Source of the DNA: an uncultured Candidatus Thioglobus sp.
Lineage (GTDB): Bacteria; Pseudomonadota; Gammaproteobacteria; PS1; Pseudothioglobaceae
Direction: 5' to 3'
Length of the DNA: 64,000 nt
NCBI GenBank assembly: GCA_905182815.1
Contig: CAJJCX010000004.1
Location: 124,001 to 188,000, forward strand
Part shown: positions 4,552 to 63,775 of the stretch, piece after piece
How positions within the stretch are numbered: position 1 is the stretch's first letter
How the letters are laid out: every line of letters begins with the position of its first letter
Program-made: the position numbers and the translations under genes
Notes under the pieces: model-generated
Told to the model about the DNA's origin: nothing
What the model saw: the letters and a program-made list of their open reading frames with translations, nothing else
Databases searched by the model: none

Positions 4552-5508
4552 ATGGCTCTTTTTCAAACTAAGAAAATTCAATCATTTATAGTATTCATTA
4601 TAGTCTTAGCAGCTATCTTATGGGTATTTCAAGATAATTTTCTAAAGCTTTTGGTGTTTCAAAAAGTTTCAGATCAATCAATCTTAACTGCTGAAGAGCC
4701 TGAAGAAACTGCTTATCTTGAAAAAATAGATAATTTTATTCTTAAAGAATATTCAAATGAGCAGATTTTATTGCACACGATACAAGCTGATACTTACTAT
4801 AGTTATAAAAACTCCCCAGTCCAGATTCTCAACGTTGAAGTTAAAACATTTAATGATAATCAAGAAGAAGGACTCGTACTTAGATCAAATCGCGCTGAAA
4901 TTCTTAAATCTGGCGAGATGTTTTTTAATGGTGAGGTAAAAATTGAAACTAAGACAGGAGTTTCACATGAGCTTGATACTGAGTCCTTAATTGTTCTCAG
5001 TGATAATGGACAAATCAAAAGCAATAAAGAGGTCACATATTTAGGTGAGACAGTAAGAATCATTTCTGAGGGAATGGAAATGAATATTGATAGTGATACG
5101 ATGTATTTAAGTGGCAATGTTAAAATTTTTGAAGATTCTGGTATGACGGTTGATACAAAAAACCTATATATTAGTCATAATGCAGGTGAAAAAATATATA
5201 AAAGTAAAGAAAAAACAGTTTATCGCTCAAAAGATACTATTGTTAATTCAGAAAATGGAATTGATATGGATATGAATATAAAGCTAATTAATCTGTTAGG
5301 AAAAGTAGAGGTTGTGAGTGGACCTGGAGGTGTTCTTAAGAGTTCTAATGTTGTAATTGATCAGTCCAATGATGGTGAAGTCTTAAAATCGAACTCACTC
5401 TCTCACTTTAAATCAAATACTGTTGACATAAAGGCAAAAAAAATGCATTATGATGCTGTAACAAAGAAACTTGAATTAATGAATAGGGTTGTGGCTGTTT
5501 ATGAATAA
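4552..5508 (+). CDS. lptC: LptC-family LPS transport protein, unusually long
   Basis: Bitopic inner-membrane component of the lipopolysaccharide transport bridge; it takes LPS from LptB2FG and passes it to LptA. One N-terminal membrane helix (about residues 9-27) is followed by a periplasmic beta-jellyroll. At 318 residues it is far longer than the usual roughly 190. The extra C-terminal part carries further OstA-like strand repeats such as MNIDSDTMYLSGNVKI, GIDMDMNIKLINLLGKVEVVSG and KKMHYDAVTKKLELMNRVVAVYE, suggesting a longer bridge built into one chain. ATG 4552 is the only possible start, because a stop lies just upstream. lptA overlaps its 3' end by 8 bases. kdsC and lptB, often neighbours, are absent. 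Confidence 0.85.
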   Translation: MALFQTKKIQSFIVFIIVLAAILWVFQDNFLKLLVFQKVSDQSILTAEEPEETAYLEKIDNFILKEYSNEQILLHTIQADTYYSYKNSPVQILNVEVKTFNDNQEEGLVLRSNRAEILKSGEMFFNGEVKIETKTGVSHELDTESLIVLSDNGQIKSNKEVTYLGETVRIISEGMEMNIDSDTMYLSGNVKIFEDSGMTVDTKNLYISHNAGEKIYKSKEKTVYRSKDTIVNSENGIDMDMNIKLINLLGKVEVVSGPGGVLKSSNVVIDQSNDGEVLKSNSLSHFKSNTVDIKAKKMHYDAVTKKLELMNRVVAVYE

Positions 5509-5986
5509 AATTATTTTATTAATTACCATTTTTTTTACGACGTTTGTTTTTGCGCTCCCAGAAGATGCAAAGCAACCCATAGAAATTGAAGCTGAGTCTG
5601 TCATAGTTGATGAGCTATCGGGTTTTAATGAGTTTAGTGGAAATGCTGAAGTTAGGCAGGGTTCACTTTTGATGACTGCAGAGCTTATCCAGGTTCAAAC
5701 TAACACCGATGGCGTTGAAACAATGAAAGCAACTGGCACAGTTGATAATCCTGCTAAGTATATTCAAAGTCAAGAAAATCAGGCGCGCTTTATAGAGGCA
5801 ACTGCAACATTAATTACCTATGATGTGAATGAAGGCATGATTTTTTTGGTTGGGAATGCCTACTTAATTCAAGGATTTGACTCGTTTAGTGGTGACACAT
5901 TAACCTATGACATTAATAACGATAAAGTTATTGTTAAAGGCTCAGAGGATGGGACTAAAAGAGTAAAGTTTAAAATCGATCTTTAA
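5501..5986 (+). CDS. lptA: LPS transport periplasmic protein LptA
   Basis: Soluble periplasmic bridge protein that carries LPS from LptC to the outer-membrane LptD. About 161 residues from ATG 5501, which gives a clean signal peptide (NKIILLITIFFTTFVFA, cleaved before LPEDA). The OstA/LptA repeats follow: PIEIEAESVIVDELSGFNEFSGNAEVRQG, then AKYIQ and FIEATATLITYDVNEGMIFLVGNAYL, ending with a strand at TLTYDINNDKVIVKG. An upstream TTG at 5489 would extend it, but the ATG gives the signal peptide. Overlaps lptC by 8 bases, so the two are translationally coupled. Faces adk tail to tail with about 11 bases between. Confidence 0.92.
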   Translation: MNKIILLITIFFTTFVFALPEDAKQPIEIEAESVIVDELSGFNEFSGNAEVRQGSLLMTAELIQVQTNTDGVETMKATGTVDNPAKYIQSQENQARFIEATATLITYDVNEGMIFLVGNAYLIQGFDSFSGDTLTYDINNDKVIVKGSEDGTKRVKFKIDL

Positions 5987-14171: not shown

Positions 14172-15494
14172 TTAAGGCATTTCATCAAGCGTTTCAGATA
14201 TTGCACGAGCAGTAACTTCAATGTCCTCTTCTGTATGGACAATTGAGGATAATGAATGTAATGTAGCTGATGGATTCATATAAATTCCTTTATCAAAAAG
14301 TCTCAACGCAAAATTTCGAAATTTTAAACGATCTACACTTCTACAAAAGTCACGATAGTTAGAGATTTCTTTTTGGTCGGTGAAGAAGATTTGAAACATG
14401 GAATTCACACCTTGGCAAACCATCTTATGTTTATTATTTTTTTTAGAAATAGATTGGATTTCTTCTGTAAGTTTAATGCCAAGATCTTTAATTTTGACAA
14501 AACCTGCCTGATTGTCATCTAACATTGTTGTAAGCATCGTTTTACAAATATGCAATGCTAATCGACCTGCATTATGTGTCCCAAAATGTAGAACCTTTCC
14601 CCATTCAAGGCCAGACATTATTTCGTCAGATCCACCAATCGCTGCCATGGGAACCCCAGAGCCTAGTGCTTTTCCATAAGTAACAATATCTGGCTTTAAG
14701 CCATAAAGTTCAGCACATCCACCAGCAGCAACCCTGAATCCTGTAACAGTTTCATCTAAATAAAATAAGGCACCATGTTCATTGCAGAGCTCTTCAATTC
14801 TATTAAGGTACCCTGGTTTTGGTACTATTACGCCCATATTTGACATAATTCCTTCAGTCACAACACAAGCAGCATCACGGCCATGAAGAGCCATTGCTCT
14901 CTCTAGTGCATCAAAATCATTCCATGGAACAATAATGGTATCCATCCAACTTTCTTCTGTCATCCCAGAACTATCTGGAATTCTTATTGGAGAATTAGGA
15001 TGCCCTAACGAGGTTATTGGCTGAGGGTTGCTATTAATTAATACAGCATCCCACCACCCATGATAGTGACCTTCAAATTTAATAATTTTTCGACGCCCAG
15101 TATGACCTCGTGCAAGTCTAATTGCTGCCATAGCTGCTTCTGTTCCTGTGTTAGCAAATCTTACTTTATCAACATGCGGCAGTAAATTTACTAAGATTTC
15201 TGCAACTTCAACTTCAACTTCTAAAGCAGTTGCAAAATGACTTCCACGTGCAATTTCTTTTGTAACTGTGGTCACAATTTTTGGATGTGCATGTCCTAAT
15301 GGAAGAGCTCCAAATGCCATCATCCAGTCTATATATTCTCTACCATCTACGTCGTATAATCTAGATCCCTCGCCATGAGACATATATCTAGGGGTTGTGC
15401 CAAATGCTGCAGGGCCTCTAGAGGCTGATGAAACTCCTTCTATCAAAACTTTAGAGCCTCTTGCAAAGAGACTTTCAGATGTATTTTTTTTCAT
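14172..15494 (-). CDS. Class III aminotransferase, glutamate-1-semialdehyde aminomutase-like
   Basis: 440 residues, a PLP enzyme. ARGSKVLIEGVSSASRGPAAFG and DVDGREYIDWMMAFGALPLGHAHP match the N terminus of the HemL-like group, with FANTGTEAAMAAIRLARGHTGRRKIIKFEGHYHGWWD, FYLDETVTGFR and the PLP lysine in VTYGKALGSGVPMAAIGG. It differs from true HemL near HFGTHNAGRLAL, so I do not call hemL. It is more likely an omega-aminotransferase or aminomutase for another amino acid. Coupled to the ProC-like reductase. The gap of about 190 bases to nudE should hold divergent promoters. Confidence 0.82.
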   Translation of the reverse strand: MKKNTSESLFARGSKVLIEGVSSASRGPAAFGTTPRYMSHGEGSRLYDVDGREYIDWMMAFGALPLGHAHPKIVTTVTKEIARGSHFATALEVEVEVAEILVNLLPHVDKVRFANTGTEAAMAAIRLARGHTGRRKIIKFEGHYHGWWDAVLINSNPQPITSLGHPNSPIRIPDSSGMTEESWMDTIIVPWNDFDALERAMALHGRDAACVVTEGIMSNMGVIVPKPGYLNRIEELCNEHGALFYLDETVTGFRVAAGGCAELYGLKPDIVTYGKALGSGVPMAAIGGSDEIMSGLEWGKVLHFGTHNAGRLALHICKTMLTTMLDDNQAGFVKIKDLGIKLTEEIQSISKKNNKHKMVCQGVNSMFQIFFTDQKEISNYRDFCRSVDRLKFRNFALRLFDKGIYMNPSATLHSLSSIVHTEEDIEVTARAISETLDEMP

Positions 15495-49082: not shown

Positions 49083-49347
49083 AATATAAATTATTGAATT
49101 ATTTAGGATTAATATACCAAGAACTGAATTTTAATTTTTGTTAATTGTTAGACTGGAATATCTTTTAGGTTAGCTTGGCACTAACTGATTAATATTAAAA
49201 GATATTATAACATATGTTCTATTTTCTTAATATTAGAAAACATATATATCTCTTCATGTATACTCCAAATATTGAAGTTCTAAAAATCCTTCAATATTGG
49301 GGTCAATCGTGACTTCAAAAAAACTTATAGAAAGGAGATACAAAATT
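49083..49347. promoter_or_regulatory. Divergent control region between mmsA and the inositol operon
   Basis: 265 bases without a gene. It holds a possible -10 TATACT at 49259-49264 for the right-hand operon, a strong inverted repeat just after it (separate entry), and an imperfect symmetrical A+T block around 49210-49247 (ATATGTT...AACATAT with TTTTCT...AGAAAA inside). Together these fit a repressor-controlled divergent promoter pair, with the RpiR-type protein at 53.3 kb as the obvious candidate regulator. Confidence 0.5.
49265..49300. promoter_or_regulatory. Candidate operator/hairpin in front of the inositol ABC operon
   Basis: Near-perfect inverted repeat: CCAAATATTGAAG, 11-base spacer, CTTCAATATTGG, differing only by one extra A in the left arm. 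It lies directly after the TATACT -10 candidate, about 48 bases before the binding-protein start, so it would straddle or follow the transcription start. Fits a repressor operator; a stabilising 5' hairpin is the alternative. Confidence 0.55.
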
Positions 49348-50307
49348 ATGTTGAAAATTAATAAATATGTCTCAAGTCTATTTCTTTCAGTTTTTGTTCT
49401 TTTCGGAACAACTGTGGGAAGTACGGCAGCGATGGCAGATGGTGAAAAGTTTGTACTAATTAGCCATGCACCAGATTCTGATTCATGGTGGAATACAATT
49501 AAAAATGCAATTGAAATTGCTGGTGAGCAAATGGGTGTCGATGTTGATTATCGTAACCCAACTACAGGAGATCTTGCTGATATGGCACGTATCGTTGAGC
49601 AGGCTGCTGCAAGCAACCCTGATGGTATTATTGTTACGATTGCTGATTATGACGTCCTAAAAGGACCAATTACTTCAGCTATAGCAAAAGGAATCCCAGT
49701 TGTAACAATTAACTCTGGTACTCGTGAGCAATCTGAAATGCTAGGAGCATTAGCGCACATTGGTCAGCCTGAGTATGATGCTGGTTTTGGTGCTGGTAAG
49801 AGAGCAAAAGCTGCTGGAGCAACAAAGTTTTTATGTGTTAATCACTTCTTCACAAACCCGGTATCAGTTGATCGTTGCCAGGGCTATGCAGATGCTCTTG
49901 GTGTAGATCTTGGAAATCAAATGATCGACTCTGGACAAGATCCAACAGAAATAAAAAATAAAGTTATGGCTCATCTTAGATCAAATCCTGATACAGATGC
50001 AATTCTTACTTTAGGTCCAACTTCTGCTCATCCAACGCTTTCAGCTTTAGATGATATGGGTCGTTCGGGCGATATTTATTTTGGTACTTTTGATCTTTCA
50101 GGTGAGATTGCAGCTGCTGTTAAAGCAGATGTTATTTCTTTCGCTATTGATCAACAGCCGTACTTACAAGGATATCTTCCAGTTGTAATGTTGACTAACT
50201 TGTCAAGATATGGCGTATGGCCTTCTGGTGCAATTAACTCTGGCCCTGGATTTATCACTAAGAGTAATATTAGCTTAGTTGAAAAATATGCAGGCGTTTA
50301 CCGTTAA
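49348..50307 (+). CDS. Sugar (inositol-type) ABC transporter, periplasmic binding protein
   Basis: About 319 residues. Signal peptide LKINKYVSSLFLSVFVLFGT with likely cleavage after AMA, then a family 1/4 sugar-binding fold: SHAPDSDSWWNTIKNAIEIAGEQMGVDVDYRNP, EQAAASNPDGIIVTIADYD, PVVTINSG, HIGQPEYDAGFGAG, TLGPTSAHPTLSALDD, FGTFDLSGEIAAAVKADVISFAIDQQPYLQGYLPV. The ATG at 49348 has a strong AAGGAG at 49332. First gene of the importer operon; inositol is inferred from the genes that follow. A strong terminator after it should lower expression of the downstream genes. Confidence 0.9.
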   Translation: MLKINKYVSSLFLSVFVLFGTTVGSTAAMADGEKFVLISHAPDSDSWWNTIKNAIEIAGEQMGVDVDYRNPTTGDLADMARIVEQAAASNPDGIIVTIADYDVLKGPITSAIAKGIPVVTINSGTREQSEMLGALAHIGQPEYDAGFGAGKRAKAAGATKFLCVNHFFTNPVSVDRCQGYADALGVDLGNQMIDSGQDPTEIKNKVMAHLRSNPDTDAILTLGPTSAHPTLSALDDMGRSGDIYFGTFDLSGEIAAAVKADVISFAIDQQPYLQGYLPVVMLTNLSRYGVWPSGAINSGPGFITKSNISLVEKYAGVYR

Positions 50308-50432: not shown

Positions 50433-51539
50433 ATGTCTACAATTGAAAAAAAAATTTCATTAATTCGTTCCAAATTTAGTGTCGCATTACTTCGTCCTGA
50501 CTTAGGTGCAATTGTTGGAGTTGTATTAGTTTTTCTATTCTTTTTTTTAGTAGCCCGAGATACGGGGATGTTTTCATTAGAAGGCTCTATGAATTGGGGA
50601 ATCGTGTCTTCACAGTTTATCATTATTGCTGTTGGCGCTTGCCTTCTCATGATCGCTGGAGAATTTGATCTATCAGTAGGGTCAATGATCGGTTTTGCCG
50701 GAATTGTCATAGCAGTGACCTCAGTAGTTTGGGGTTGGCCAGTATGGCTTAGTATCCTTATAGCATTCGTTGTTTCGATGTCTATAGGTGCATTAATTGG
50801 CTACATTACAGTCAAAACAAATTTACCTTCTTTTATTGTGAGTCTTGCATTTTTATATATCCTGCGAGGCATGACAATCTTTATTGCAATTATAAGTACG
50901 AAAAAAACCATTATTGGTGGAGTTACAGAGGTCGCTGAAAATGATTGGTTAGCACCAATTTTTGGTGGCGAGATATTTACAGGCGTATTTGACTGGCTTG
51001 CTGAGCAAGGCATAATTCAAACGTTTGTCGCTGGCACAAAGGCTGGTCAGCCAGTTGTATCGGGTATCCCAATGATGATGGTTTGGGCTATAGGACTCGT
51101 TATTTTTGCACATTTTTTATTAACAAAAACTCGGTTTGGTAACTGGATCTATGCCTCAGGCGGTGATGCACAAGCTGCTCGTCATATAGGTGTCCCAGTA
51201 AACAGAGTTAAAATATTGATGTTTGTCTTTACAGCCTTTTGTGCGACTGTATTTGCAACTACCCAGGTTATTGAGTTTGGTTCAGCTTCAGCGGATAGAG
51301 GAATTCTAAAAGAGTTTGAGGCGATTATTTCAGTTGTTATAGGCGGCGCTTTATTAACGGGTGGCTACGGTTCAGTTATTGGAGCTGCACTAGGAGCAGT
51401 CATATTTGGAGTAGTTCAACAAGGCTTATTTTTTATTGGAGTAGAGAGTTCTTTGTTTAGAGTGTTCTTAGGCGTTCTTCTATTGTTAGCGGTGATCCTT
51501 AATACACATGTTCGTAAATTAATTACTGGGGCAAAATGA
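50433..51539 (+). CDS. Sugar (inositol-type) ABC transporter permease
   Basis: 368 residues of the RbsC/BPD_transp_2 family with about ten hydrophobic segments. Signature after the third segment LLMIAGEFDLSVGSMIGFAG, then TVKTNLPSFIVSLAFLYILRGMTIF, GNWIYASGGDAQAARHIGVPVNRVKI and VIGGALLTGGYGSVIGAALGAVIFGV. The stop overlaps the ATPase start by 4 bases (ATGA). A long periplasmic insert (about 160-210) precedes the C-terminal half, as in inositol permeases of this type. Confidence 0.92.
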   Translation: MSTIEKKISLIRSKFSVALLRPDLGAIVGVVLVFLFFFLVARDTGMFSLEGSMNWGIVSSQFIIIAVGACLLMIAGEFDLSVGSMIGFAGIVIAVTSVVWGWPVWLSILIAFVVSMSIGALIGYITVKTNLPSFIVSLAFLYILRGMTIFIAIISTKKTIIGGVTEVAENDWLAPIFGGEIFTGVFDWLAEQGIIQTFVAGTKAGQPVVSGIPMMMVWAIGLVIFAHFLLTKTRFGNWIYASGGDAQAARHIGVPVNRVKILMFVFTAFCATVFATTQVIEFGSASADRGILKEFEAIISVVIGGALLTGGYGSVIGAALGAVIFGVVQQGLFFIGVESSLFRVFLGVLLLLAVILNTHVRKLITGAK

Positions 51540-52304
51540 TGAGTGATTTACCGTTAATGGAACTTAAAGATATCCATAAGAGCTTCGGAAATGTAGATGC
51601 TCTCAAAGGCGTTTCAATCTCTATTAATGCTGGAGAATGTCATTGTTTATTGGGTGATAACGGAGCAGGAAAATCTACATTTATTAAAATCATGTCTGGC
51701 GTTCATCAGCCAACAAGTGGCCAGATCAAGTATTAATGGACAAGAGACTGAAATTAATAACCCTCGAGATGCAATTGATGTTGGAATTGCTACAGTCTAT
51801 CAAGACTTAGCTTTAATTCCTTTAATGTCTGTATCTCGTAATTTTTGGCTTGGCAGGGAGCTGACAAAAAAAGTGGGCCCAATCACTGTCATGGATTTTG
51901 AGAAATGCAACTCAATTTTGATGACTGAAATGGACAAAATGGGAATTCAATTGCGTGACCCTACTCAATCAATTGGGACTCTGTCTGGGGGCGAAAGGCA
52001 AACTGTTGCTATTGCCCGTGCTGTATTTTTTGGCGCCAAAATATTGATACTTGATGAGCCAACTTCAGCCCTGGGAGTTTATCAAACCTCAAATGTGCTA
52101 AAAACTATTGAAAGGGTTCGAGAAAAAGGTGTTGCAGTAATCTTTATTTCTCATAATGTTTCCCATGCTTTGGCAGTGGGGGATAAGTTTACGGTTTTAT
52201 CTCGAGGTGAGACTCTAGGTACTGCTAAAGCAGGTGAAATTGATTTCCAAGAATTACAAGCCATGATGTCTGGTAATAAAGAATTATCAGTATTAAAAAA
52301 ATAG
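51536..52304 (+). pseudogene. Sugar ABC transporter ATP-binding protein, single domain, one frameshift
   Basis: About 255 residues after correction. Walker A GDNGAGKST (40-48) in the first frame, then a break at about 51727-51730 where one extra A separates TSGQI from SINGQETEINNP. The rest continues: VYQDLALIPLMSVSRNFWLGREL, signature LSGGERQTVAIARA, Walker B ILILDEPTSALG, and switch His in VIFISHNVSHAL. Most ribose/inositol-type ATPases are tandem (about 500 residues); this is the one-domain FrcA-like type and must form a homodimer. The break does not touch conserved motifs. Confidence 0.88.
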
Positions 52305-52313
52305 AGGTTAATT

Positions 52314-53294
52314 ATGAAAATATGTCTAATTGGTGCCGGTCGCATAGGAGCAGTTCATGCTATCGCGATAGCCAGTGATGAAAACGCTAATCTCCACTCT
52401 GTTGTAGATTTTCATCAAGAGTCTGCCGAAAAGCTTGCGAATAAATACAATGCTATCACTCTTTCAATGGATGAGGCATTTGAAAATAATGAAATAGATG
52501 CTTTTATTATTGCTAGCAGTACTTCTACCCATGCAGACCTTATAGAAAAATGCGCGAAAGTTGGTAAGCCTGTTTTTTGTGAAAAACCTATAGATTTAAG
52601 TCTTGATAGAGCATTGGCGTGCGCTAAAGCTGTTGAAGAAAGTGGTATTGTATGTATGTTAGGATTTAATAGACGTTTTGATCCTCATATGGCTAGTTTA
52701 AAAAATAAAGTTGATGCAAATGTAATTGGTTTAATTCAGTCTTTAATAATAACTTCTCATGACCCTGAGCCACCTTCAATGGACTATATCGCAGGGTCCG
52801 GTGGTTTATTTCACGATATGATGATCCATGATTTTGATATGGCGTGTTGGATTCTTAATGACACTCCAAGAAGTATCTATGTTTCAGCTAATGCTGCAAA
52901 TGATGATATTGCTAAGCAGGGAGATGTTGATACAGCAAGTGTAATAATGAATATGAATAAGGGGGCAATAGTTACTATTATTAATGGTCGACAAGCCTCC
53001 TTTGGTTATGATCAGAGAATTGAAGCTTTTGGTGAGACAGGCATGCTTCAAGTAAAAAATGTCCTTGAAGATAGTGTTATTTTAAGTAACTCATCTGGAA
53101 TTAAGCAGACCAAAAACCAACACTTTTTTTTAGAAAGATATGGAAAAGCGTTCCACAATGAACTAGTGCATTTTATGGAATCATTTCAGTCTGGTACTCA
53201 GCCTAGTGTTAATATTTCTGATGGGGTTCTTGCGTTAAAAATTGCTGAAGCTGCTAAAGAGTCACTCCAAAGTGGCAACTCAATTAATTTATAG
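52314..53294 (+). CDS. iolG: Inositol 2-dehydrogenase (Gfo/Idh/MocA family)
   Basis: NAD-dependent oxidation of myo-inositol to 2-keto-myo-inositol, first step of the pathway. 326 residues. ICLIGAGRIGAVHAIAIA Rossmann motif, FIIASSTSTHADLIEKCAKVGKPVFCEKPIDL with the EKP signature lysine, GFNRRFDPHMASLK, and the catalytic DxxxHD in GGLFHDMMIHDFDMACWI. Follows the transporter genes by 9 bases; one long operon runs from 49.3 kb to the window edge. Confidence 0.92.
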   Translation: MKICLIGAGRIGAVHAIAIASDENANLHSVVDFHQESAEKLANKYNAITLSMDEAFENNEIDAFIIASSTSTHADLIEKCAKVGKPVFCEKPIDLSLDRALACAKAVEESGIVCMLGFNRRFDPHMASLKNKVDANVIGLIQSLIITSHDPEPPSMDYIAGSGGLFHDMMIHDFDMACWILNDTPRSIYVSANAANDDIAKQGDVDTASVIMNMNKGAIVTIINGRQASFGYDQRIEAFGETGMLQVKNVLEDSVILSNSSGIKQTKNQHFFLERYGKAFHNELVHFMESFQSGTQPSVNISDGVLALKIAEAAKESLQSGNSINL

Positions 53295-53306: not shown

Positions 53307-54128
53307 ATGCCTCCACAAGATATTAATGATTTAAATAGCTTGCTTCAAGAAAGCTATCCAAGATTAAGCAAAAAAATGAAGTTGATTGCTTTCTATGTAA
53401 TTGATCAGCCACAAAACCTTGCAATAAATACCTTGGCGGTTATTGCGTCAGAAATTGGAGTGTACCCTTCAACCTTAGTCCGCTTTGCAAAACACTTTGG
53501 TTTTAGTGGTTTTGCTGAACTACAAGATCTGTTTAAGGTCAAAATTTCACAATCTCCTATTAACTATCGACAACGCATCACGGACGTGAAAAAAGTTACT
53601 GAAACAAGTGTGTCTACAAATAGTTCAAATATCTTTAAAGAAATTACGAGTCGCAATATTGTTGCTACAGAATTACTTTCTGAGCAAATAGATGTTCAGT
53701 TAATAGAAGAAACAGTGAAGGCATTGTGTGATGCTAGAGAAGTAATTTTGTGCGGTACAAATAGAGCCCAACCTGTAGCAAATTACTTTTATTACATGTT
53801 AAACAATCTCGGTATTCGATGTCGTATTGCTAATGATGTAAATGAAGTGGAGAACCTTTCAAATTGGCTTGATGACAAAACAGTATTCATTGCAATTACT
53901 TATAATCCTTACAATACGATGACAACAGAAGCGGTTAAAGAGGCAAAAAATTCAAAAGCAAAGGTAATTTTGCTGACCGATACAGAGCTCAATCCTATTG
54001 CTCATTTAGCAGATTTTTTATTTAGCATTCATGAGGCAGAAATTCATACTTTTAGGTCTTTAGGGGCCACAATGTGTCTCGTTCAGGCTATATGTATATC
54101 AATTGGCTATCATCAACAAGGAAATTAA
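53307..54128 (+). CDS. RpiR/MurR-family regulator (probable inositol regulator)
   Basis: 273 residues. N-terminal RpiR helix-turn-helix: KMKLIAFYVIDQPQNLAINTLAVIASEIGVYPSTLVRFAKHFGFSGFAELQDLF. C-terminal SIS sugar-phosphate isomerase-like domain: REVILCGTNRAQPVANYFYYMLNNLG, VFIAITYNPYNTMTTEAVKEAK, and VILLTDTELNPIAHLADFLFSI. In rhizobia the inositol regulator IolR belongs to this family and represses iol genes. Its place between iolG and iolB supports the same job here; the inverted repeat at 49265-49300 is a candidate site. Confidence 0.88.
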   Translation: MPPQDINDLNSLLQESYPRLSKKMKLIAFYVIDQPQNLAINTLAVIASEIGVYPSTLVRFAKHFGFSGFAELQDLFKVKISQSPINYRQRITDVKKVTETSVSTNSSNIFKEITSRNIVATELLSEQIDVQLIEETVKALCDAREVILCGTNRAQPVANYFYYMLNNLGIRCRIANDVNEVENLSNWLDDKTVFIAITYNPYNTMTTEAVKEAKNSKAKVILLTDTELNPIAHLADFLFSIHEAEIHTFRSLGATMCLVQAICISIGYHQQGN

Positions 54129-54130
54129 AT

Positions 54131-54929
54131 ATGTCACTTTTATCTCGCCCTAAATTAAGTTCAAATGGTTGTTATCAAGACATTACTCCAAAATCAGCAA
54201 ATTGGGATTTTGTTGGATTTAAAGCGTATGAACTGGAGCCTGCAAACTTTAAATTTGATAGAAATCGAAAATGAATCTATGCCTGGTAATTTTATCTGGG
54301 AAGGCCGATATACATGTTGAAGATGAAGAGTTTTATAATCTTGGCGATAGAATGAGCGTCTTTGAAGATCTTAAACCTCATGCGTTATATGTTCCTAATA
54401 ATCATAACAATAACCATTAAAGCATTAACTAAGCTTGAACTTGCAATTGCAGCTGCACCTGGTTTTGGTAATTATCCTGTAAGACATATAAAGCCTGAAG
54501 AAATGACTAATGAGGTGCGGGGAGAAGGAGCTAATACAAGGTCTATTTGTAATATCTTGCCGAGAACAAGATGAGGCTGATAGCCTTTTGGTTGTTGAAG
54601 TTAAAACTCCTGCAGGTAATTGGTCGAGCTATCCACCTCATAAACATGACTCAGACAACATTCCAGTTGAAACTTATCTTGAGGAAACCTATTATCATCG
54701 GATTAACCCATCGCAAGGTTTTGTTTTCCAGCGAGTCTATACTGATGATTTGTCTATTGATGAAACTATGGCAGTAGAAGATAAATGTGTTGTATTAGTT
54801 CCATCTGGATACCATCCTGTTGGCGTTCCTTATGGGTATGATTCTTACTATTTAAATGTAATGGCGGGCCCAAAACGTCAATGGATTTTTAAAAATCACC
54901 CCGATCATCAATGGATGTTAGATAAATAA
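54131..54929 (+). pseudogene. iolB: 5-deoxy-glucuronate isomerase, four single-base insertions
   Basis: Isomerises 5-deoxy-glucuronate in inositol breakdown. Cupin fold, about 265 residues when corrected. Start SLLSRPKLSSNGCYQDITPKSANWDFVGFKAYELEP, middle NLGDRMSVFEDLKPHALYVP and AAAPGFGNYPVRHIKPEEM, C-terminal PPHKHDSDNIPVETYLEETYYHRI with the metal-binding His-Lys-His and EETYYH, and NVMAGPKRQWIFKNHPDHQWMLDK. Removing one A at each of about 54249, 54277, 54407 and 54564 gives one continuous frame. All four are extra A. Start lies 2 bases after the regulator stop; the stop overlaps iolC (TAATG). Confidence 0.88.
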
Positions 54930-56837
54930 TGAAAGCACTTGATGTTATTTGCCTAGGGCGCGCTGCAGTAGATTTATACGGGCAACAAATTGGATCTACT
55001 CTTGAAGGTATGGGGAGTTTCGCAAAATATCTTGGAGGCTCTTCTGCAAATATTGCTTATGGCTCTTCAAAACTTGGGCTAAAGTCTGCAATGATCTGCA
55101 GAGTTGGTGATGAGCATATGGGAAGATTTGTGCGGAATGAATTAGCAAGTGTTGGCGTTGATGTTTCGCATGTTGTCACAGACAAAGATCGATTAACAGC
55201 TTTAGTTGTCCTAGGGATACAAAATAAAGACACTTTCCCGCTTATTTTTTATCGAAACGATTGCGCTGATATGGCAGTTGACATAAAAGACTTTTCAGCC
55301 GAATTTATCGCTAGCAGTAAAGCGCTTTTAATTACAGGGACACACTTTTCTTCTGACAATACATATAAGACAAGTATGAAGGCTATTGAGTTCGCTAAAG
55401 CAGGGGGCACTCAGGTAATTGTAGACATCGATTATCGGCCTGTTTTATGGGGTTTAACAGGACTGGGTGATGGGGAGTCTCGTTTTATTGCAAGCGCTGA
55501 TGTAAGTAAGCACATACAAACTATACTACCTTATTGTGATGTAATTGTGGGCACTGAAGAGGAGATACATATTGCTGGTGGAAGTGAAGATACAGTTACT
55601 GCTTTAAAGAAAGTTCGAAGCTAAGTGATGCCATTATTGTTTTAAAACTTGGGCCATTGGGATGCACAGTAATTAGTGGTGATATTCCAAATAACTCAGG
55701 TGAATTTGAAGTTATCAAAGGTAATAAAGTAGATATATTAAATGTTCTGGGTGCTGGCGATGCTTTCATGTCTGGATTTTTGCGTGGTTATCTTGAGAAA
55801 TGAAAGTCTTGAAAAAAGTGCCAATTATGCAAATGCATCTGGAGCTCTAGTGGTCTCTAGACATGGTTGTGCTCCAGCGATTCCAGGTGAGCAAGAGCTC
55901 TTTTATTATCTAGATAATGCGCATAATATTCCAGATCCAAGTCAAGACAAAGAGCTTAATCATCTTCATAGAGTTAGTTCAAGAAGCATTGCTCGATCTG
56001 AGATTTTTGGCTTCGCTTTTGATCATCGTAAACAGCTCTATGACCTGGCAGATTAATTGTGGAGAGAGCCCTAAGCGAGTAGTTAAGCTAAAAAATTTAT
56101 TTTTGAATTCTATTGAAGAGACTATTAAGAGAAGTAATATTGATGAGAATAGTGTGGGTGTATTAATCGATGACACTTATGGTGAAGAAGCGCTTCACTC
56201 TATTGCTGAAAAGTCATGGTGGATTGGAAGGCCTGTGGAGCTTCCAGGCTCTTGTCCTTTAGAGTTTGAGGGAGGAGGATCGATTGGATCGAAACTCCAG
56301 TCTTGGCCACTTACGCATGTTGTAAAGTGCTTGATGTTTTATCATATCAATGATCCTATTGAATTGAGGTTAAAGCAAGAATCGAAAATTATAGAGCTCA
56401 ATTCTGCTTGTATTCAAAGTGGACATCAATTGTTATTAGAGATCATTCTACCTGGGGACTTGGAAGAGGATGAATCAACTATTCCACAAATACTAAATAG
56501 GCTTTATGGTCTTGGTATCAAGCCGGATTGGTGGAAATTGCCAGCACTGAAAGACAAGTCATGGGAGCAAGTGAGCGATGTGATATTACAAAATGATGCG
56601 CACTGTGAAGGTGTGTTATTATTAGGTCAATCAGCATCTATGGATGCTGTAAAAAGTTCTTTTGAGGATGCCTCAAAACATAAAATTTGCAAAGGTTTTA
56701 CTGTTGGTAGGACAATTTTTTATGAGCCAGCCAAGCAGTGGATGGAAAAAAAGATAAGTGATCAAGAGTTGATTGATTTAGTGTCCAATAATTACATAGA
56801 ACTAATTAAATCTTGGAAAAAATATAGAGAGGAGTAA
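54929..56837 (+). pseudogene. iolC: 5-dehydro-2-deoxygluconokinase fused to DUF2090 aldolase-like domain, three frameshifts
   Basis: N-terminal PfkB kinase (IolC): LDVICLGRAAVDLYGQQIG, AKYLGGSSANIAYGSSKLGL, RVGDEHMGRFVRNEL, DIDYRPVLWG, catalytic LGAGDAFMSGFLRG. C-terminal DUF2090 domain: SEIFGFAFDHRKQLYDLAD, VGVLIDDTYGEEALH, GRPVELPGSCPLEFEGGGSIGSKLQSWP, FTVGRTIFYEPAKQW. Such fusions are known in inositol operons and are thought to join phosphorylation with cleavage of the product (IolJ role). About 636 residues. Breaks: missing T near 55623, extra G near 55796, extra T near 56055. Sequence on both sides stays conserved. Confidence 0.87.
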
Positions 56838-56842
56838 AGACT

Positions 56843-58699
56843 ATGAAAACAGTCAGACTAACAATGTCACAGGCTATCGTTAAATATTTATCAGCCCAAT
56901 ATATAGAGATTGACGATGAAATACATCCATTATTTGCCGGAGTTTTTGCTATTTTTGGACATGGCAATGTTGCTGGAATGGGTCAGGCATTGTCAGAGTG
57001 TGAAGAGTGGCTTCCTACATTTCGTGGCCATAGTGAGCAAGGAATGGTTCATTCAGCAATTGCTTATGCAAAGGCTAATAATAGACAAAGAATGATGGCT
57101 TGTACAAGTTCAATTGGACCTGGCGCAACTAATATGATTACATCTGCAGCATTAGCCCATGTAAATAGACTGCCAGTGTTATTGTTGCCTGGTGATTATT
57201 TTGCAAGCCGCACTCCAGATCCTGTTCTTCAGCAACTAGAAGATTTCTCAGACCCTACAGTCAGCGTTAATGATTGCTTCAGGCCAGTTAGTCGATATTT
57301 TGATCGAATTATGAGGCCCGAGCAAATAATTAATAGTTTACCTGTGGCAATTCAAACACTGCTAGACCCAGAAAATTGTGGCCCAGTAACTTTATCTTTG
57401 CCTCAAGATGTGCAGGCTGAAGCATTCGATTATCCTGAAGAATTCTTTACTCAAAAAACTCACTCAATTCGCCAGATTAAACTTGATGATGCTGAATTAG
57501 ACCATGCAATAGAGTTGTTAATTAAATCAAAAAAACCTTTAATAATTGCAGGTGGAGGAGTTCATTATGCTAAGGCCTGTGAGGACTTACAACATTTTGC
57601 CAAACAACACCAAATACCAGTTGCAGAGACATCTGCTGGAAAAGGTGCCTTGGCTTGGGACCACTCTAGCTATGTTGGTGCTATTGGGGTTACCGGATCA
57701 AATGCAGCAAATAATATGGCTAAAAAGGCAGATTTAGTTTTGGCTATTGGTACACGCTTAAATGATTTCAATTCTGGCTCCAGAGCGTTATTTTCAAGCA
57801 CAACTATAGTGCAGTTAAATGTAGCCCGTTTTGATGCAATAAAACACAATGCATTGCCATTATGGGGCGATGCAAAGCTTGGAATTCAACAATTAGATAC
57901 GAAGCTATCTGATTGGAAAGCGAGTCAAGAATGGAAAGACTTAGCGCATGAAGAAAGCAGTAAATGGAATAACTATTACGATGAAATAACTTCAATAAAG
58001 AGCACATCTAAAACTATGGATTCACTGCCAACTGACGCCCAAGTTTTGGGAGAGTTAAAGCGAAATGGAAAGGCGACAGATATAGTTGTTTGTGCTGCAG
58101 GAAGTCTTCCTGGTGAACTTCACAAGCTTTGGAGGACTGAGCAAACGGGCGGCTATCATGCGGAGTATGGATTTTCTTGTATGGGCTATGAAATAGCTGG
58201 CGGTCTTGGCGTAAAAATGGCTGAGCCTGAGCGAGAAGTAATTGTTCTTGTAGGAGATGGGTCATATTTGATGCTTAATTCAGAATTAGCAACAAGCGTA
58301 ATGTTGGGACAAAAAATAATTGTAGTTGTTTTAGATAATCGAGGTTTTTCTTGTATTAATCGACTGCAAAATGCAACTGGAAACCGATCATTTAATAATT
58401 TATTGAAGGATTGTGAAAGTATTGATGACGGCCATCCAAATGTCAATTTTGCGCTTCATGCGCAGTCTTTAGGAGCGAACTCTGAACATATTGAAAATAT
58501 TAATGAATTAGCTTCAGCTCTGGAACGTGCCCGTTTATCTTCAAAATCTTATCTTATTAGCTTAGTGACTGATTCTCATAAAATAAGTCCAGAAGGTGGA
58601 TGTTGGTGGGAGGTTGCCGTTCCTGAGGTTTCGTCAAATAAAAATGGCGATGAAGTCTATAACTCTTATAAGAAAGGGAAAAAACAACAGCCTTATTAA
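56843..58699 (+). CDS. iolD: 3D-(3,5/4)-trihydroxycyclohexane-1,2-dione acylhydrolase
   Basis: ThDP enzyme opening the inositol ring to 5-deoxy-glucuronate. 618 residues, usual length. VRLTMSQAIVKYLSAQYIEID, GVFAIFGHGNVAGMGQALSE, FRGHSEQGMVHSAIAYAKANNRQRMMACTSSIGPGATNM with the ThDP glutamate in the first, then YFDRIMRPEQII, VGDGSYLMLNSELATSV with the Mg/ThDP site (GDGSYLMLNSE) and NATGNRSFNNLL. Starts 5 bases after iolC. Intact, unlike its two upstream neighbours. Confidence 0.95.
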   Translation: MKTVRLTMSQAIVKYLSAQYIEIDDEIHPLFAGVFAIFGHGNVAGMGQALSECEEWLPTFRGHSEQGMVHSAIAYAKANNRQRMMACTSSIGPGATNMITSAALAHVNRLPVLLLPGDYFASRTPDPVLQQLEDFSDPTVSVNDCFRPVSRYFDRIMRPEQIINSLPVAIQTLLDPENCGPVTLSLPQDVQAEAFDYPEEFFTQKTHSIRQIKLDDAELDHAIELLIKSKKPLIIAGGGVHYAKACEDLQHFAKQHQIPVAETSAGKGALAWDHSSYVGAIGVTGSNAANNMAKKADLVLAIGTRLNDFNSGSRALFSSTTIVQLNVARFDAIKHNALPLWGDAKLGIQQLDTKLSDWKASQEWKDLAHEESSKWNNYYDEITSIKSTSKTMDSLPTDAQVLGELKRNGKATDIVVCAAGSLPGELHKLWRTEQTGGYHAEYGFSCMGYEIAGGLGVKMAEPEREVIVLVGDGSYLMLNSELATSVMLGQKIIVVVLDNRGFSCINRLQNATGNRSFNNLLKDCESIDDGHPNVNFALHAQSLGANSEHIENINELASALERARLSSKSYLISLVTDSHKISPEGGCWWEVAVPEVSSNKNGDEVYNSYKKGKKQQPY

Positions 58700-58701
58700 A
58701 T

Positions 58702-59883
58702 ATGAACAAAGAAGCTTTAAAATCAACTAATAGCCAAGTTTTTTTCAGTGAGTCTGATATAAATTATGATGACCTAAAGAAAGTCTGCTCTCAAAAAACT
58801 CTAAAAAAGGACTACCCATTATCCGAATCAGTTATAAATAATGTGGTCGTTTATGATGCAAAAAACTTTACTTCATTTATTGGAAATAAAGAAAAAGAAA
58901 AAGAACTAAAAACTGAGTTATTTCATGCCTTAGAAAGTGGCCCAGGGGTTTTTGTTATTCGCAATCTTTATGAACATGAAGTTTTAGATCAGAGCAATAG
59001 GATTTTTGAGAAAATTACTCAAAAAGAGATTGGAACTAGCAATGACCATTTCGCTTCTGGAACAAATACAAGGATATGGAATAGTTTTCAAAAAGTTGCG
59101 TTGGAGGATCCTGATGCATTTATTAGTTACTATTCAAATGATATTTTAAAGTTAGTTGCAGAGTCCTGGTGTGGGCCAAATTCTCAAATGACTGCGCAAG
59201 TTAATATTGTAAGACCTGGCGGTGAAATGCAAAAACCACACCGTGATTATCATTTAGGGTTTCAAGAAAATAAAGTTGTTGAGCTGTTTCCTATTTCAGC
59301 TCATCGCCTTTCAAACTATTTAACTCTGCAAGGTGGGGTCGCACACACCGACATGCCTTTAGAAACTGGGCCCACGATTGTTTTGCCTTATTCGCACCAC
59401 TTCGACTTAGGTTACCTTGCCTGGAGAGACAATGCATGTACTGAATTTTTTAATACGAATGCAGTTCAAAATCAAATGAATAAAGGCGATGGTATTTTTT
59501 TTAATCCTGCTTTATTGCATGGAGCTGGGTCCAACACTTCAAATGACTTTCATAGGATCGGCAACCTTTTACAAATTTCATCTCCTTTTGGTAAGACTAT
59601 GGAGAGTATAAATTACATTAAAATTCTTAAGCGTATTTACCCATTCCTACTGGAGCATTCAATTAAAAAAACTCTTTCAGAAAAACTAATTGAGAATGTC
59701 CTTATTTGTGCAACAGATGGCTATGCATTTCCTACAAACCTTGACTATGATCAAAATTCAAACTCTAAGTTGCAGGGCATGAGCATGTTTGAACTTACTA
59801 AGCAATCACTTCTAGATTTAGTTAGTCTAGAGGAATTTAGTTTAAAGCTTTTGGAGCTTCAGCAATTTAGACTTGCTGATTAA
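58702..59883 (+). CDS. Phytanoyl-CoA dioxygenase (PhyH)-family protein
   Basis: 393 residues, an Fe(II)/2-oxoglutarate dioxygenase by motif: the iron triad is readable as His180-x-Asp182 in MQKPHRDYHLGFQE and His273 in NPALLHGAGSN, with the 2-oxoglutarate Arg285 in NDFHRIGNLLQ. Its start is 2 bases after iolD, so it belongs to the inositol operon. It is not a known step of inositol breakdown. It might hydroxylate or demethylate an inositol derivative (for example an O-methyl or deoxy inositol) before the core pathway. That is inference from place alone. Confidence 0.82.
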   Translation: MNKEALKSTNSQVFFSESDINYDDLKKVCSQKTLKKDYPLSESVINNVVVYDAKNFTSFIGNKEKEKELKTELFHALESGPGVFVIRNLYEHEVLDQSNRIFEKITQKEIGTSNDHFASGTNTRIWNSFQKVALEDPDAFISYYSNDILKLVAESWCGPNSQMTAQVNIVRPGGEMQKPHRDYHLGFQENKVVELFPISAHRLSNYLTLQGGVAHTDMPLETGPTIVLPYSHHFDLGYLAWRDNACTEFFNTNAVQNQMNKGDGIFFNPALLHGAGSNTSNDFHRIGNLLQISSPFGKTMESINYIKILKRIYPFLLEHSIKKTLSEKLIENVLICATDGYAFPTNLDYDQNSNSKLQGMSMFELTKQSLLDLVSLEEFSLKLLELQQFRLAD

Positions 59884-59913: not shown

Positions 59914-60820
59914 ATGAGTGTAAAAATTGGTGTTAGTCCGATTTCATGGACTAACGATGATATGCCTGAACTGGGCAAAGATACTACAGTAGAGCATTGC
60001 TTAACAGAGGGAAAACAAGCCGGTTATCGTGGATTTGAATTAGGAGGTAAGTGGCCTAAGGATTCGGAAATACTTACGACCATTATTTGATAAATATAGT
60101 ATGGACGTAGTTTCTAGTTGGTTTTGTGGGGGCTTATTAGCAGACAGTCTTGAAGATGAGATAGAAAGAATAACACCACACATGAATCTTCTTAAAGATA
60201 TGGGGACGGAAGTAATTGTTTATTGTGAAATGGACTCTTGTGTTCATGGAGATATTAGTTCGCCACTCTCAAAACGCCCTATCCTTGATGATGGACAATG
60301 GGAAGAGTGGACTGAAAAGTTGAGTCAGCTAGCTAAATATACTTTGTCGAATGGAATGAAGCTTGCTTATCATCATCACATGGGAACAGTTGTTCAAATC
60401 GAAGAAGAAATAGACAAGTTAATGGCTATGACAACTACTGATCTTGGTTTAGTATTTGATACTGGTCATTTAATTTATGCTGGTGCTGATCCTTTAGAAG
60501 TTTATAAAAAACACAACGATAGAGTTATGCATATTCACTGTAAAGATGTTCGAGGTGAAATATTAAACCACTCACTAGATACTGATTCAAGTTTTTTAAA
60601 CTCAGTTTTGAGTGGGGTTTATACAGTTCCTGGGGACGGCGATTTTAATTTTTCTGAGCTATTTAAAATGGTGGGCGAAGCCAACTTCAGTGGCTGGGTA
60701 GTTGTAGAGGCTGAACAAGACCCGGCTAAGGCCCACCCATTAACCTATGTGACAATGGGGTATAAAAATATTAAAAGTTACTGTGAAAAATTTGGAATTC
60801 AAATAGAGGAAAGAGAATGA
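59914..60820 (+). pseudogene. iolE: Inosose (2-keto-myo-inositol) dehydratase, one frameshift
   Basis: Dehydrates 2-keto-myo-inositol, second step of the pathway; xylose-isomerase-like TIM barrel, about 301 residues. VKIGVSPISWTNDDMPELG at the start, GYRGFELGGKWPKDSEIL, then the break at about 60074 where one extra A (CTTACGACC) precedes RPLFDKYSMDVVSSWFCGGLL. The rest is intact: YHHHMGTVVQ, FDTGHLIYAGADP, HIHCKDVRGEIL, VPGDGDFNFSELF and VVVEAEQDPAKAHP, with the metal Glu/His/Asp residues. A GGAGAAG Shine-Dalgarno precedes the ATG. Overlaps the following IolG-like gene by 4 bases. Confidence 0.92.
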
Positions 60821-61941
60821 AAACTATTGGTGTAGGAGTTATTGGTACTGCTTTTATGGGCAAAGCCCATTCTATTGCTTATGCAGCAGCTGGGAGTGTT
60901 TTTGGTGATGGCTTAAGGCCTAGTTTGGAGATGATTTGTGATTACAACTCTGAAAGAGCTGAAGTGATGCGAACTGAAATGGGATTCTCTCGTTGCACCT
61001 CTGATTGGATGGATGTGGTCAATGACCCAAAGGTCCAGTTGATTTCAGTATGTGTTCCCAATTCGCTTCATAAAGAAATTTCAGTAGCTGCTCTCAAACT
61101 TGGTAAGCATGTTTGGTGTGAAAAGCCTATGTCAACTAATTTAGCAGACTCTGAAGCTATGCTCGCAGCTGCTCAAGCTAGCAATGCACAAACTATCTTA
61201 GGCTACAACTATACTCAAAATCCTGCTGTTCAAAGTGCTAGAGAGCTCATTGAAGAAGGCGCTATAGGTCGAGTAATTGGATTTCATGGGATTTATGATG
61301 TTGATAATGAAGCTGATCCAGATAGACCTCATTCATGGCGTATGAATCGTGAAGCTTCTGGCTCTGGTGCAAATGCTGATGTTATGTGTCATTTAGTTAG
61401 TATGGCTCACTATATGACGGGTAGTTCAATAACTCGCCTAGTGGGAGATTACGATACAGTCCACAAAGAGCGTTCGGATCCAGAGAATCCAGGACAAACA
61501 TTGCCAGTTGATAACGATGATGTCTGTACTGCATTGGCCCACTTTGAGAGTGGAATCAAGGGGACATTGCGCGTCAGTCGAGTAGCATGGGGAAGAAAGT
61601 GTGGATTAAGTTGGGAAATACATGGCTCTCAAGGCATGATTTGTCATGACCAAGAGCGTTTAAATGAAGTTAAGCTTTATACAAGAAGTGATGATCCAAG
61701 ACAGGAGGGCTTTAAAACAATATTGAGTGGCCCAGCGCAACCACCATATGATGCGTTTTTACCCAATGCAGGCCACAGTCTTGGCTTTATTGATGTAAAG
61801 GTTTGTGAACTTAAACATTTACTTGATTCAATTGAAACGGGTCAGCCAGTATGGCCAAACTTTGCCGACGGTTTAAAAATCGAAAAAGTCATGGATGCAA
61901 TAGACCGTTCTGCAATGACTGGAAAGTGGCTGGATGTCTGA
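60817..61941 (+). CDS. Gfo/Idh/MocA oxidoreductase, second inositol dehydrogenase-like
   Basis: 374 residues, longer than IolG. Rossmann GVGVIGTAFMGKAHSIAYAAAG, VCVPNSLHKEISVAALKLGKHVWCEKPMSTN, GYNYTQNPAVQSARELI, and the active-site DVMCHLVSMAHYMTGS; the C terminus has KGTLRVSRVAWGRKCGLSWEIHG and FADGLKIEKVMDAIDRS. Likely oxidises or reduces another inositol isomer (scyllo- or chiro-) or a related keto sugar. Coupled to iolE (ATGA overlap) and followed by a second kinase and IolB-like gene. Confidence 0.85.
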   Translation: MKTIGVGVIGTAFMGKAHSIAYAAAGSVFGDGLRPSLEMICDYNSERAEVMRTEMGFSRCTSDWMDVVNDPKVQLISVCVPNSLHKEISVAALKLGKHVWCEKPMSTNLADSEAMLAAAQASNAQTILGYNYTQNPAVQSARELIEEGAIGRVIGFHGIYDVDNEADPDRPHSWRMNREASGSGANADVMCHLVSMAHYMTGSSITRLVGDYDTVHKERSDPENPGQTLPVDNDDVCTALAHFESGIKGTLRVSRVAWGRKCGLSWEIHGSQGMICHDQERLNEVKLYTRSDDPRQEGFKTILSGPAQPPYDAFLPNAGHSLGFIDVKVCELKHLLDSIETGQPVWPNFADGLKIEKVMDAIDRSAMTGKWLDV

Positions 61942-61955
61942 AACAAAACTATCAC

Positions 61956-62933
61956 ATGATGCAATATAAAGAAAATCGATTATATGATGCCTTGGTCGTG
62001 GGACGAGCTGGCCTTGATCTGTATCCACAGCCTGTAGGAAGTAAAACTCGCGATGCAGAATTATTTGCTAGTGATGTGGGCGGTTCTGGGGCGAACATTG
62101 CAATAGCTATGAAGCGTGCAGGTGGTAAAGTAGGTCTTATCTCTGCCTTGTCTGACGATCCAGTTGGTGAATTTGTTCGGCTGCGTCTTGAAATTGAAGG
62201 TATTGATTTGCAGATGATGCAAACAACTTATGGTGATGAGAGGACTAGTTTAGCAATTGCTGAAGTGCGCCAAGAGGACTGCGAAGTAGTAATATATCGT
62301 AATAATCCTGCTGATCTTCAAATTGTCTGTAATGAAGATGTAAAACTTGCAATTACTCAAAGCCAAAATCTAATAATAACTGGCACCAGCTTAATTGAAG
62401 CTGATTCACGAAAACAAACTTTGAAAATGATGGTTCATGCTCAAAAAAATGACTGCAAAGTATGGCTAGATCTAGATTACAGGCCATGGAACTGGCCTGA
62501 TCAGAAAACTACCCGTTTTGTTTATCAAGAGGCTGCAGGATTAACAAATGTATTAGTTGGCAACGAAGAAGAATTTAAAATCCTTCAAGAAGATATAAAT
62601 ATACAGGTTAAACAATGTGTTGCAAGCAATCAGGTAATGATTCTTAAGCGGGGCAAGAGTGGCTGTAGTCTTTTTTTTGGTAAAGATCGGCTTGATACGG
62701 GAATTTATAATTTACCCGCACTTAAACCATATGGTTCTGGTGATGCTTTTTTAGGTAATGTGATAATGAATTATATGTCCTCTAGAGACTGGCAACTAGC
62801 TATTGAATCTGGGAGCGCTGCTGCAGCTATAGTGGTATCAAAACAAGGCTGTGCGAGCGCTATGCCAAAAATGGAAGAAATTGAGCTGTTACAAAAACAG
62901 ATAATAATCAAACCAAAAACAATTTGGAGTTAA
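61956..62933 (+). CDS. PfkB-family kinase, IolC-like without DUF2090
   Basis: About 325 residues from the ATG pair at 61956/61959. YDALVVGRAGLDLYPQPVGSKT, DVGGSGANIAIAMKRAGGKVGLISALSDDPVGEFV, LDLDYRPWNWPDQKTTRF, TNVLVGNEEEF and the catalytic GSGDAFLGNV near the C terminus. Close in layout to the kinase half of iolC but a single domain and clearly different in sequence. Expected to phosphorylate a 5-keto-2-deoxy sugar acid or similar. It stops 2 bases before the IolB-like gene. Confidence 0.87.
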   Translation: MMQYKENRLYDALVVGRAGLDLYPQPVGSKTRDAELFASDVGGSGANIAIAMKRAGGKVGLISALSDDPVGEFVRLRLEIEGIDLQMMQTTYGDERTSLAIAEVRQEDCEVVIYRNNPADLQIVCNEDVKLAITQSQNLIITGTSLIEADSRKQTLKMMVHAQKNDCKVWLDLDYRPWNWPDQKTTRFVYQEAAGLTNVLVGNEEEFKILQEDINIQVKQCVASNQVMILKRGKSGCSLFFGKDRLDTGIYNLPALKPYGSGDAFLGNVIMNYMSSRDWQLAIESGSAAAAIVVSKQGCASAMPKMEEIELLQKQIIIKPKTIWS

Positions 62934-62935
62934 AT

Positions 62936-63775
62936 ATGCATATCCCTCAACATGACAACAATAATAAGGCAATCATAGATTGTAATAATGAATTAGTTCC
63001 TCTATGCTATTTCAATATCATCAAGCTAAGTGCTGGAGAATCATATACTTATCAACTAACTGATTATGAGTCATGTATTGTTCCAGCAACTGGCAGTATA
63101 GATGTACAGGTTCAAGGACAAGTTTTTAAAGAGGTTGGTAAGCGACAACATATTTGGGAGGGCGATCCTGAGGGTGTTTATGTCCCTGTTGATTGTGAAG
63201 CAACATTAACTTGTATCAGTAATGAAGTGGAAGTGTTTGTCTCTGGAGCTAAGCATAATCAAACCCATGAAGCTTTTGTTATAAGACAAGACGATATTGA
63301 TAAAGTTCAGTACGGCTCTGATGACACTAAAACACATCGTAAAATCAAGCATATTCTAGGTAAAGAGCCTGCAGGAAAAGTTGGTAAATTGTTGGTTAGT
63401 GAGCTATTTACAGTAGGAGCAGGAGGCTGGTCAGGATTTCCACCTCATAAACATGAAGTAGATTTGCTTCCTGAAGAAAGTCGACATAATGAAGTTTATA
63501 ATTTTCGTTTTAATCCACCTAATGGCTTTGGTGCTCAGTTTTTAACTCCAGATGGTCAGGACTTTGGCCCCGTCTATCATATACGTGATAGCTCAACATT
63601 TGTCTTTGATAAAGGTTACCACCCCTGCGTCGCAGCACCTGGGTTTGAAATGTATTATTTCACTATTTTAGCTGGAGAGACCCAGCGTCCATTGCATATG
63701 AATTATCAGAAAGAGTACGCCTATCAATTGGAAACTATTCCTGGTATGCAAGACATGCTTAATAAATTTAAATAA
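62936..63775 (+). CDS. IolB/KduI-family cupin isomerase, divergent second copy
   Basis: About 279 residues from ATG 62936. The N-terminal half differs from IolB, while the C-terminal cupin FPPHKHEVDLLPEE with HNEVYNFRFNPPNGFGAQFL and KGYHPCVAAPGFEMYYFTILAGE keeps the metal-binding HKHE and the order seen in IolB. The first IolB has PPHKHDSDN and EETYYH; here it is EVYNFRF, so the substrate may differ. Probably an aldose-ketose isomerase acting in the second module, between the kinase and the aldolase. Confidence 0.85.
   Translation: MHIPQHDNNNKAIIDCNNELVPLCYFNIIKLSAGESYTYQLTDYESCIVPATGSIDVQVQGQVFKEVGKRQHIWEGDPEGVYVPVDCEATLTCISNEVEVFVSGAKHNQTHEAFVIRQDDIDKVQYGSDDTKTHRKIKHILGKEPAGKVGKLLVSELFTVGAGGWSGFPPHKHEVDLLPEESRHNEVYNFRFNPPNGFGAQFLTPDGQDFGPVYHIRDSSTFVFDKGYHPCVAAPGFEMYYFTILAGETQRPLHMNYQKEYAYQLETIPGMQDMLNKFK

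Follow-up and report, generated by a model that had tools for sequence, protein, structure and literature searches.

A PhyH-type dioxygenase tied to inositol catabolism in a Thioglobus-related marine bacterium, with a probable role in opening up a modified inositol

Introduction

Canonical inositol catabolism, as encoded by the iol operon of Bacillus subtilis and the iol genes of Sinorhizobium, involves no dioxygenase, and in rhizopine catabolism MocDEF is a ferredoxin oxygenase complex according to the account of Bahar et al. (1998) given in PMC5789663. Here we describe a gene for a PhyH-type Fe(II)/2-oxoglutarate (2OG) dioxygenase that, unlike anything in the canonical pathway, lies inside an inositol operon of an uncultured Candidatus Thioglobus species, a SUP05/PS1-type gammaproteobacterium of the Pseudothioglobaceae (assembly GCA_905182815.1, contig CAJJCX010000004.1, positions 124,001 to 188,000). 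We refer to this whole stretch of 64,000 nucleotides as the window. The dioxygenase and its relatives are firmly tied to inositol catabolism, and we tentatively propose that they act at the entry to the pathway.

Results

Relatives of the window dioxygenase form a subfamily with a sharp edge. A profile built from the proteins of the genus retrieved relatives at 35-50% identity from Gamma-, Beta- and Alphaproteobacteria, with all genome matches at E <= 5e-90 and none between 5e-90 and 1e-15. Plasmid records added relatives from Tsukamurella (Actinomycetota), and viral contigs yielded none. Two members, at loci L077 and L054, share 76% identity, and the window clade is sister to proteins of Pantoea and genome G714 (tree support 99).

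Carriers of this subfamily are, without exception in our samples, carriers of iolD. Among 398 Pseudomonadota genomes, the window's own included, iolD scored above its cut-off in 79 and the subfamily was present in 19, all 19 of them with iolD. With the window's genome set aside, 18 of 18 carriers had iolD against a background of 78/397 (20%; hypergeometric probability 3e-14), and a phylogeny control confined to one family, with one genome for each of 150 genera, gave iolD in 81 (54%) and the subfamily in 30, again 30/30 with iolD (4e-10), both probabilities being approximate owing to the relatedness of the genomes. The association is also physical: in 10 of 25 carrier genomes the gene lay no more than 20 kb from iolD, a distance at which these genomes had none of their 75 other PF05721 proteins (Fisher test, 2e-7, calculated with 73 other PF05721 proteins). 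In G133 and G375, from another gammaproteobacterial family, it directly follows iolD as it does in the window. The tree calls for at least seven changes in linkage to core iol genes on well-supported branches, and for 10 by parsimony, which means that the association has repeatedly formed anew. The initial annotation of this DNA had named a lack of iol linkage among close homologues as grounds for abandoning its proposal; the neighbourhood survey found linkage and co-occurrence across the subfamily. That the tie between the dioxygenase and inositol catabolism is not accidental is strongly supported.

We then clustered all open reading frames (ORFs) within 9.5 kb of 66 PhyH loci outside the genus, with no preselection. 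A divergent LacI regulator stood beside PhyH in 39 loci, followed in frequency by Gfo/Idh dehydrogenases of the type of the window's second dehydrogenase (17), IolB and IolD (15 each), a short-chain dehydrogenase/reductase (SDR) of PRK06198 type (15), IolE and IolG (11 each) and parts of inositol-type ATP-binding cassette (ABC) importers (about 10). In the sister group of the window clade, G714 and Pantoea At-9b, PhyH adjoins a LacI gene and an above-cut-off iolG, with the SDR also present in G714, a placement that fits a product ready for IolG.

The subfamily is absent from 60 of the 79 iolD genomes of the phylum sample (76%) and from 63% of those of the family sample, in agreement with an earlier remark that ordinary inositol breakdown needs no dioxygenase, and the enzyme is thus an accessory entry enzyme and not a core pathway step. 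Several operons in which PhyH follows iolD or is flanked by iolE and iolB would suit an enzyme that works within the core pathway, on free inositol or one of the intermediates, for side-product repair or alternative oxidation; however, its absence from most iolD genomes speaks against such a task, as does the frequent dedicated LacI gene, which suggests an inducer of its own, and we regard it as improbable.

The protein itself matches Pfam PhyH (PF05721) at 84.2 bits against a cut-off of 22, and a profile scan of the window's proteins assigned it to no NCBIfam family. His180, Asp182, His273 and Arg285, which had been put forward as a complete Fe/2OG site in a 393-residue PhyH enzyme, are invariant in 11 genus relatives and in a diverse alignment of 27 rows; across 57 relatives the first, second and fourth are found in 57/57 and His273 in 56/57, and the HRD motif aligns on the iron site of TlxJ, a dioxygenase of solved structure. 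The gene has an intact reading frame under purifying selection (dN/dS, the ratio of nonsynonymous to synonymous substitution rates, 0.08-0.17), and a structure model made from eight input sequences only reached a predicted local distance difference test (pLDDT) score of 38.5. Judged from its sequence, the window protein is probably an active Fe(II)/2OG dioxygenase. Among 57 subfamily members, conservation is complete or almost complete at H180, R181, D182, H184, R285 and many polar positions. Invariant polar residues as numerous as these (D115, H116, N122, R124, N127, Q177, H184, Q210, D217, N278, N288 and Q291) would fit a polyol substrate better than an acyl chain.

The PhyH name and a weak resemblance (E 2.9e-4) to human PHYH (2a1x) might suggest a true phytanoyl-CoA-type enzyme, or another lipid enzyme, whose company of iol genes is incidental. 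We rejected the window protein as a true phytanoyl-CoA hydroxylase, given this distant relationship and its inositol-gene neighbours. Strict dependence on iolD and repeated linkage argue against any lipid enzyme, no acyl-CoA gene recurs beside PhyH in the 66 loci, and by BLAST five other PhyH proteins from four rhizobial genomes show no similarity to the subfamily. The lipid explanation is largely refuted already and we hold it to be highly improbable.

In the window, the dioxygenase start codon stands 2 bases past the end of iolD within a shared operon, as the initial annotation had described (Table 1), and genus relatives keep the gene order. The gene does lie between iolD and iolE, as was also claimed, but the iolE ORF then listed (60101-60820) proved to be truncated by a frame break; read from the sequence, iolE starts at ATG 59914, about 30 bases past the PhyH stop, and an intact iolE lies directly downstream in relatives. 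The operon runs from the binding protein, permease and ATPase through iolG, the RpiR gene, iolB, iolC-DUF2090, iolD and PhyH to iolE, the Gfo/Idh gene, the IolC-like gene and the IolB-like gene, and in relatives a class II aldolase comes after it. Four of its genes (ABC ATPase, iolB, iolC and iolE) are frame-broken in the window; as all four are intact in close relatives, the breaks would suggest small assembly indels and not decay.

Table 1. Genes of the inositol operon in the window
Feature	Position	Strand	Remarks
Periplasmic sugar/inositol-type binding protein, ABC importer	49297..50307	+	Peripla_BP_4
ABC permease, sugar type	50433..51539	+	NCBIfam profile scan
ABC ATPase	51597..52304	+	N-terminal part out of frame in this assembly; relatives intact
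iolG, inositol 2-dehydrogenase	52314..53294	+	TIGR04380 387.5 bits, cut-off 355
RpiR-type regulator, IolR-like	53307..54128	+	NCBIfam profile scan
iolB copy 1, C-terminal part, frame broken	54510..54929	+	KduI/IolB; relatives intact
iolC-DUF2090 fusion (kinase/aldolase)	54929..56837	+	Broken into 54929-55624 and 55917-56837; NF047869 on both; relatives intact, 636-644 aa
iolD, ring-opening hydrolase	56843..58699	+	TIGR04377 936 bits, cut-off 715
PhyH-type Fe(II)/2OG dioxygenase, inositol-linked subfamily	58702..59883	+	393 aa, ATG start; His180, Asp182, His273, Arg285
iolE, inosose dehydratase, frame broken	59914..60820	+	Main ORF 60101-60820; TIGR04379 303.7 bits
Second Gfo/Idh-type dehydrogenase, levoglucosan-dehydrogenase-like	60817..61941	+	NF052479 322 bits, below cut-off 650
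Second IolC-like PfkB kinase	61851..62933	+	TIGR04382 274.7 bits, cut-off 300
Second IolB/KduI isomerase	62924..63775	+	KduI 244.7 bits

Within the genus, a full iolD is found in 11 of 29 genomes and PhyH adjoins it in 11/11, with an identical gene order around the pair as far as the contigs reach. In G044, from another genus, the iol operon has neither PhyH nor the second dehydrogenase/kinase/isomerase set. In G022, iolC is followed by a PhyH gene that has lost its middle, and iolD is missing (locus L024, contig G022:C10, about 4976-5729), which represents a deletion or a misassembly.

Several further arrangements were seen. The parallel second IolC/IolB set of the window (60817-63775) has counterparts in the double sets of L086 and L128, and gene types of the second set occur in L129 and L142. 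In three rhizobial loci (L083, L098 and L117), PhyH stands by an inositol-type ABC importer and a set comprising a succinate-semialdehyde dehydrogenase-like gene, an HpaI-type aldolase and a hydroxyacid dehydrogenase, perhaps another cyclitol route. At loci L104, L109, L110, L131 and L132 of marine Alphaproteobacteria, PhyH occupies a conserved chromosomal site near infC-like and cys sulfite-reduction-like genes. Across six loci of marine Alphaproteobacteria, the genes that stay next to PhyH were rejected as partners: read from the sequence, they look like genes for housekeeping functions (initiation factor 3, a ferredoxin reductase and sulfite reduction), and the site looks like a shared landing site.

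Discussion

In our samples the subfamily is confined to inositol degraders, yet 63-76% of these lack it; most often a dedicated regulator accompanies the gene, which is also found by IolG. For these reasons we propose an entry enzyme that would convert a modified inositol into a plain one. An inositol-type ABC importer would bring in a substituted inositol, the dioxygenase would oxidise it and release plain inositol or inosose, and IolG, IolE, IolD, IolB and IolC would degrade the product. In the chemistry that we favour, an O-methyl group would be hydroxylated and the resulting hemiacetal would collapse to free formaldehyde, with 2OG converted to succinate and CO2; candidate substrates are O-methyl-inositols of the pinitol, ononitol, sequoyitol and quebrachitol type. 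Fe/2OG enzymes are able to demethylate, and in legumes and many plants under stress O-methyl-inositols make up a major share of the soluble carbohydrates. Because such enzymes can demethylate and such compounds are abundant where many carriers live, O-demethylation is our first choice, and the plant-associated carriers (Pantoea, Rhizobium, Sinorhizobium and Caballeronia) fit O-methyl-inositol substrates. In root exudate of Mimosa, pinitol had the highest concentration of the compounds measured, 145 uM (PMC5789663). The data strongly suggest that the substrate is an inositol derivative and weakly suggest that the reaction is O-demethylation, and for an entry enzyme of the inositol pathway that most likely works by oxidative O-demethylation of O-methyl-inositols we judge the chance to fall just short of even.

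Several points weigh against demethylation. No formaldehyde gene recurs beside PhyH in the 66 loci, and the sole one-carbon gene noticed beside any member is a purU near one locus (L082, Peteryoungia plasmid, 14296-15180); found there only and absent from the genus, purU was dropped as a marker of demethylation, although the one-carbon enzyme FTHFS is present in all 11 near-complete genomes of the genus. The literature searched offered no support for O-methyl-inositols in the open ocean, and the marine and soil occurrence of the carriers fits other cyclitols too.

The main rival, which the lack of recurrent formaldehyde genes keeps in play, is hydroxylation of a ring CH2 in a deoxy-inositol (quercitol, viburnitol or cyclohexanetetrol), which would give inositol at the same position in the pathway with no formaldehyde released. 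The genomic evidence for it is the same as for demethylation, C-H hydroxylation is the commonest PhyH-type reaction and cyclohexanetetrol serves as an osmolyte in some marine haptophytes; deoxy-inositols are, however, rarer than O-methyl-inositols in plants, and we consider this reaction doubtful.

The substrate might instead be another inositol conjugate, such as an amino-inositol (the rhizopine 3-O-methyl-scyllo-inosamine), a C-methyl-inositol, an inositol glycoside or a lipid head group. Several homologues adjoin inositol/rhizopine-type binding proteins, a PhyH gene of Ensifer adhaerens is down-regulated together with a rhizopine-binding protein, IolG and IolC (PMC6637203), and the two IolB/IolC sets of the window operon could mean an unusual intermediate. 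The second set is nevertheless not needed: single-set operons (L107 and L126) also carry PhyH, and on this ground we rejected a dependence of PhyH on the second IolB/IolC/aldolase set. Rhizopines come from rhizobial bacteroids and are unlikely in seawater, and neither a hydrolase nor an aminotransferase recurs in the 66 loci. A conjugate of this kind appears unlikely as the substrate.

Returning to O-demethylation, its demonstration would supply a missing first step of pinitol-type catabolism and an unnoticed dissolved carbon source for marine SUP05-type bacteria. In the literature searched, most subscription papers being outside its coverage, we found no functional assignment of the subfamily, no gene assigned to bacterial demethylation of O-methyl-inositols, and nothing on point for Thioglobus singularis and inositol, for PhyH and iolD or for bacterial pinitol demethylation; the sole papers with a bearing on the question were the Ensifer adhaerens transcriptome (PMC6637203) and the Mimosa exudate measurements (PMC5789663). 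The present work offers one candidate gene, found both in plant bacteria that are amenable to genetics (Pantoea agglomerans, Sinorhizobium meliloti and Agrobacterium) and in abundant marine SUP05-type bacteria. We think it fairly probable that a widespread, undescribed Fe/2OG family of inositol O-demethylases, or deoxy-inositol hydroxylases, usually with its own LacI, allows bacteria of the sea and of plants to feed on modified cyclitols such as pinitol; for the marine bacterium described here, a modified inositol is probably opened up as extra food. The automatic name phytanoyl-CoA dioxygenase is misleading for many database entries and is corrected by the link to inositol.

Compared with described systems, the window operon resembles the canonical iol pathway in that its IolG, IolE, IolD, IolB and IolC families score over or near curated cut-offs. 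With the PF05721 enzymes human PHYH (2a1x) and fungal EasH, TlxJ, SptF and AndA, the dioxygenase shares the fold family, the HxD...H iron site and an arginine for 2OG, but it is very distant from them (phmmer E 7e-6 at best), their substrates being acyl-CoA, alkaloid or terpenoid; its N-terminal region, a C-terminal GYxFPTNLD block and inositol-gene partners are the subfamily's own. The inositol-linked PhyH group is apparently a new functional subfamily, not described before, within an enzyme fold that is itself known.

An independent hint, and a candidate member, come from Ensifer adhaerens, where seven of nine genes down at all time points on roots encode PhyH, IolG, IolC, a Gfo/Idh protein and three inositol/rhizopine ABC parts (PMC6637203). 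The authors left PhyH and the inositol genes unconnected, and PhyH was annotated as acting on phytanoyl-CoA; the identities reported for this gene, OV14_RS14055 (86% to S. meliloti and 78% to A. tumefaciens), match the spread of the subfamily. Assignment to a MocDEF-type system is not borne out, as neither the operon genes recognised in the window nor those that relatives keep include a ferredoxin or reductase partner. As far as MocDEF is described in PMC5789663, the likeness lies in the proposed use of an oxygenase to channel a derivative of an O-methyl inositol into myo-inositol catabolism, and the difference in its makeup, MocDEF being a multi-component ferredoxin system and the window enzyme a single-polypeptide Fe/2OG dioxygenase.
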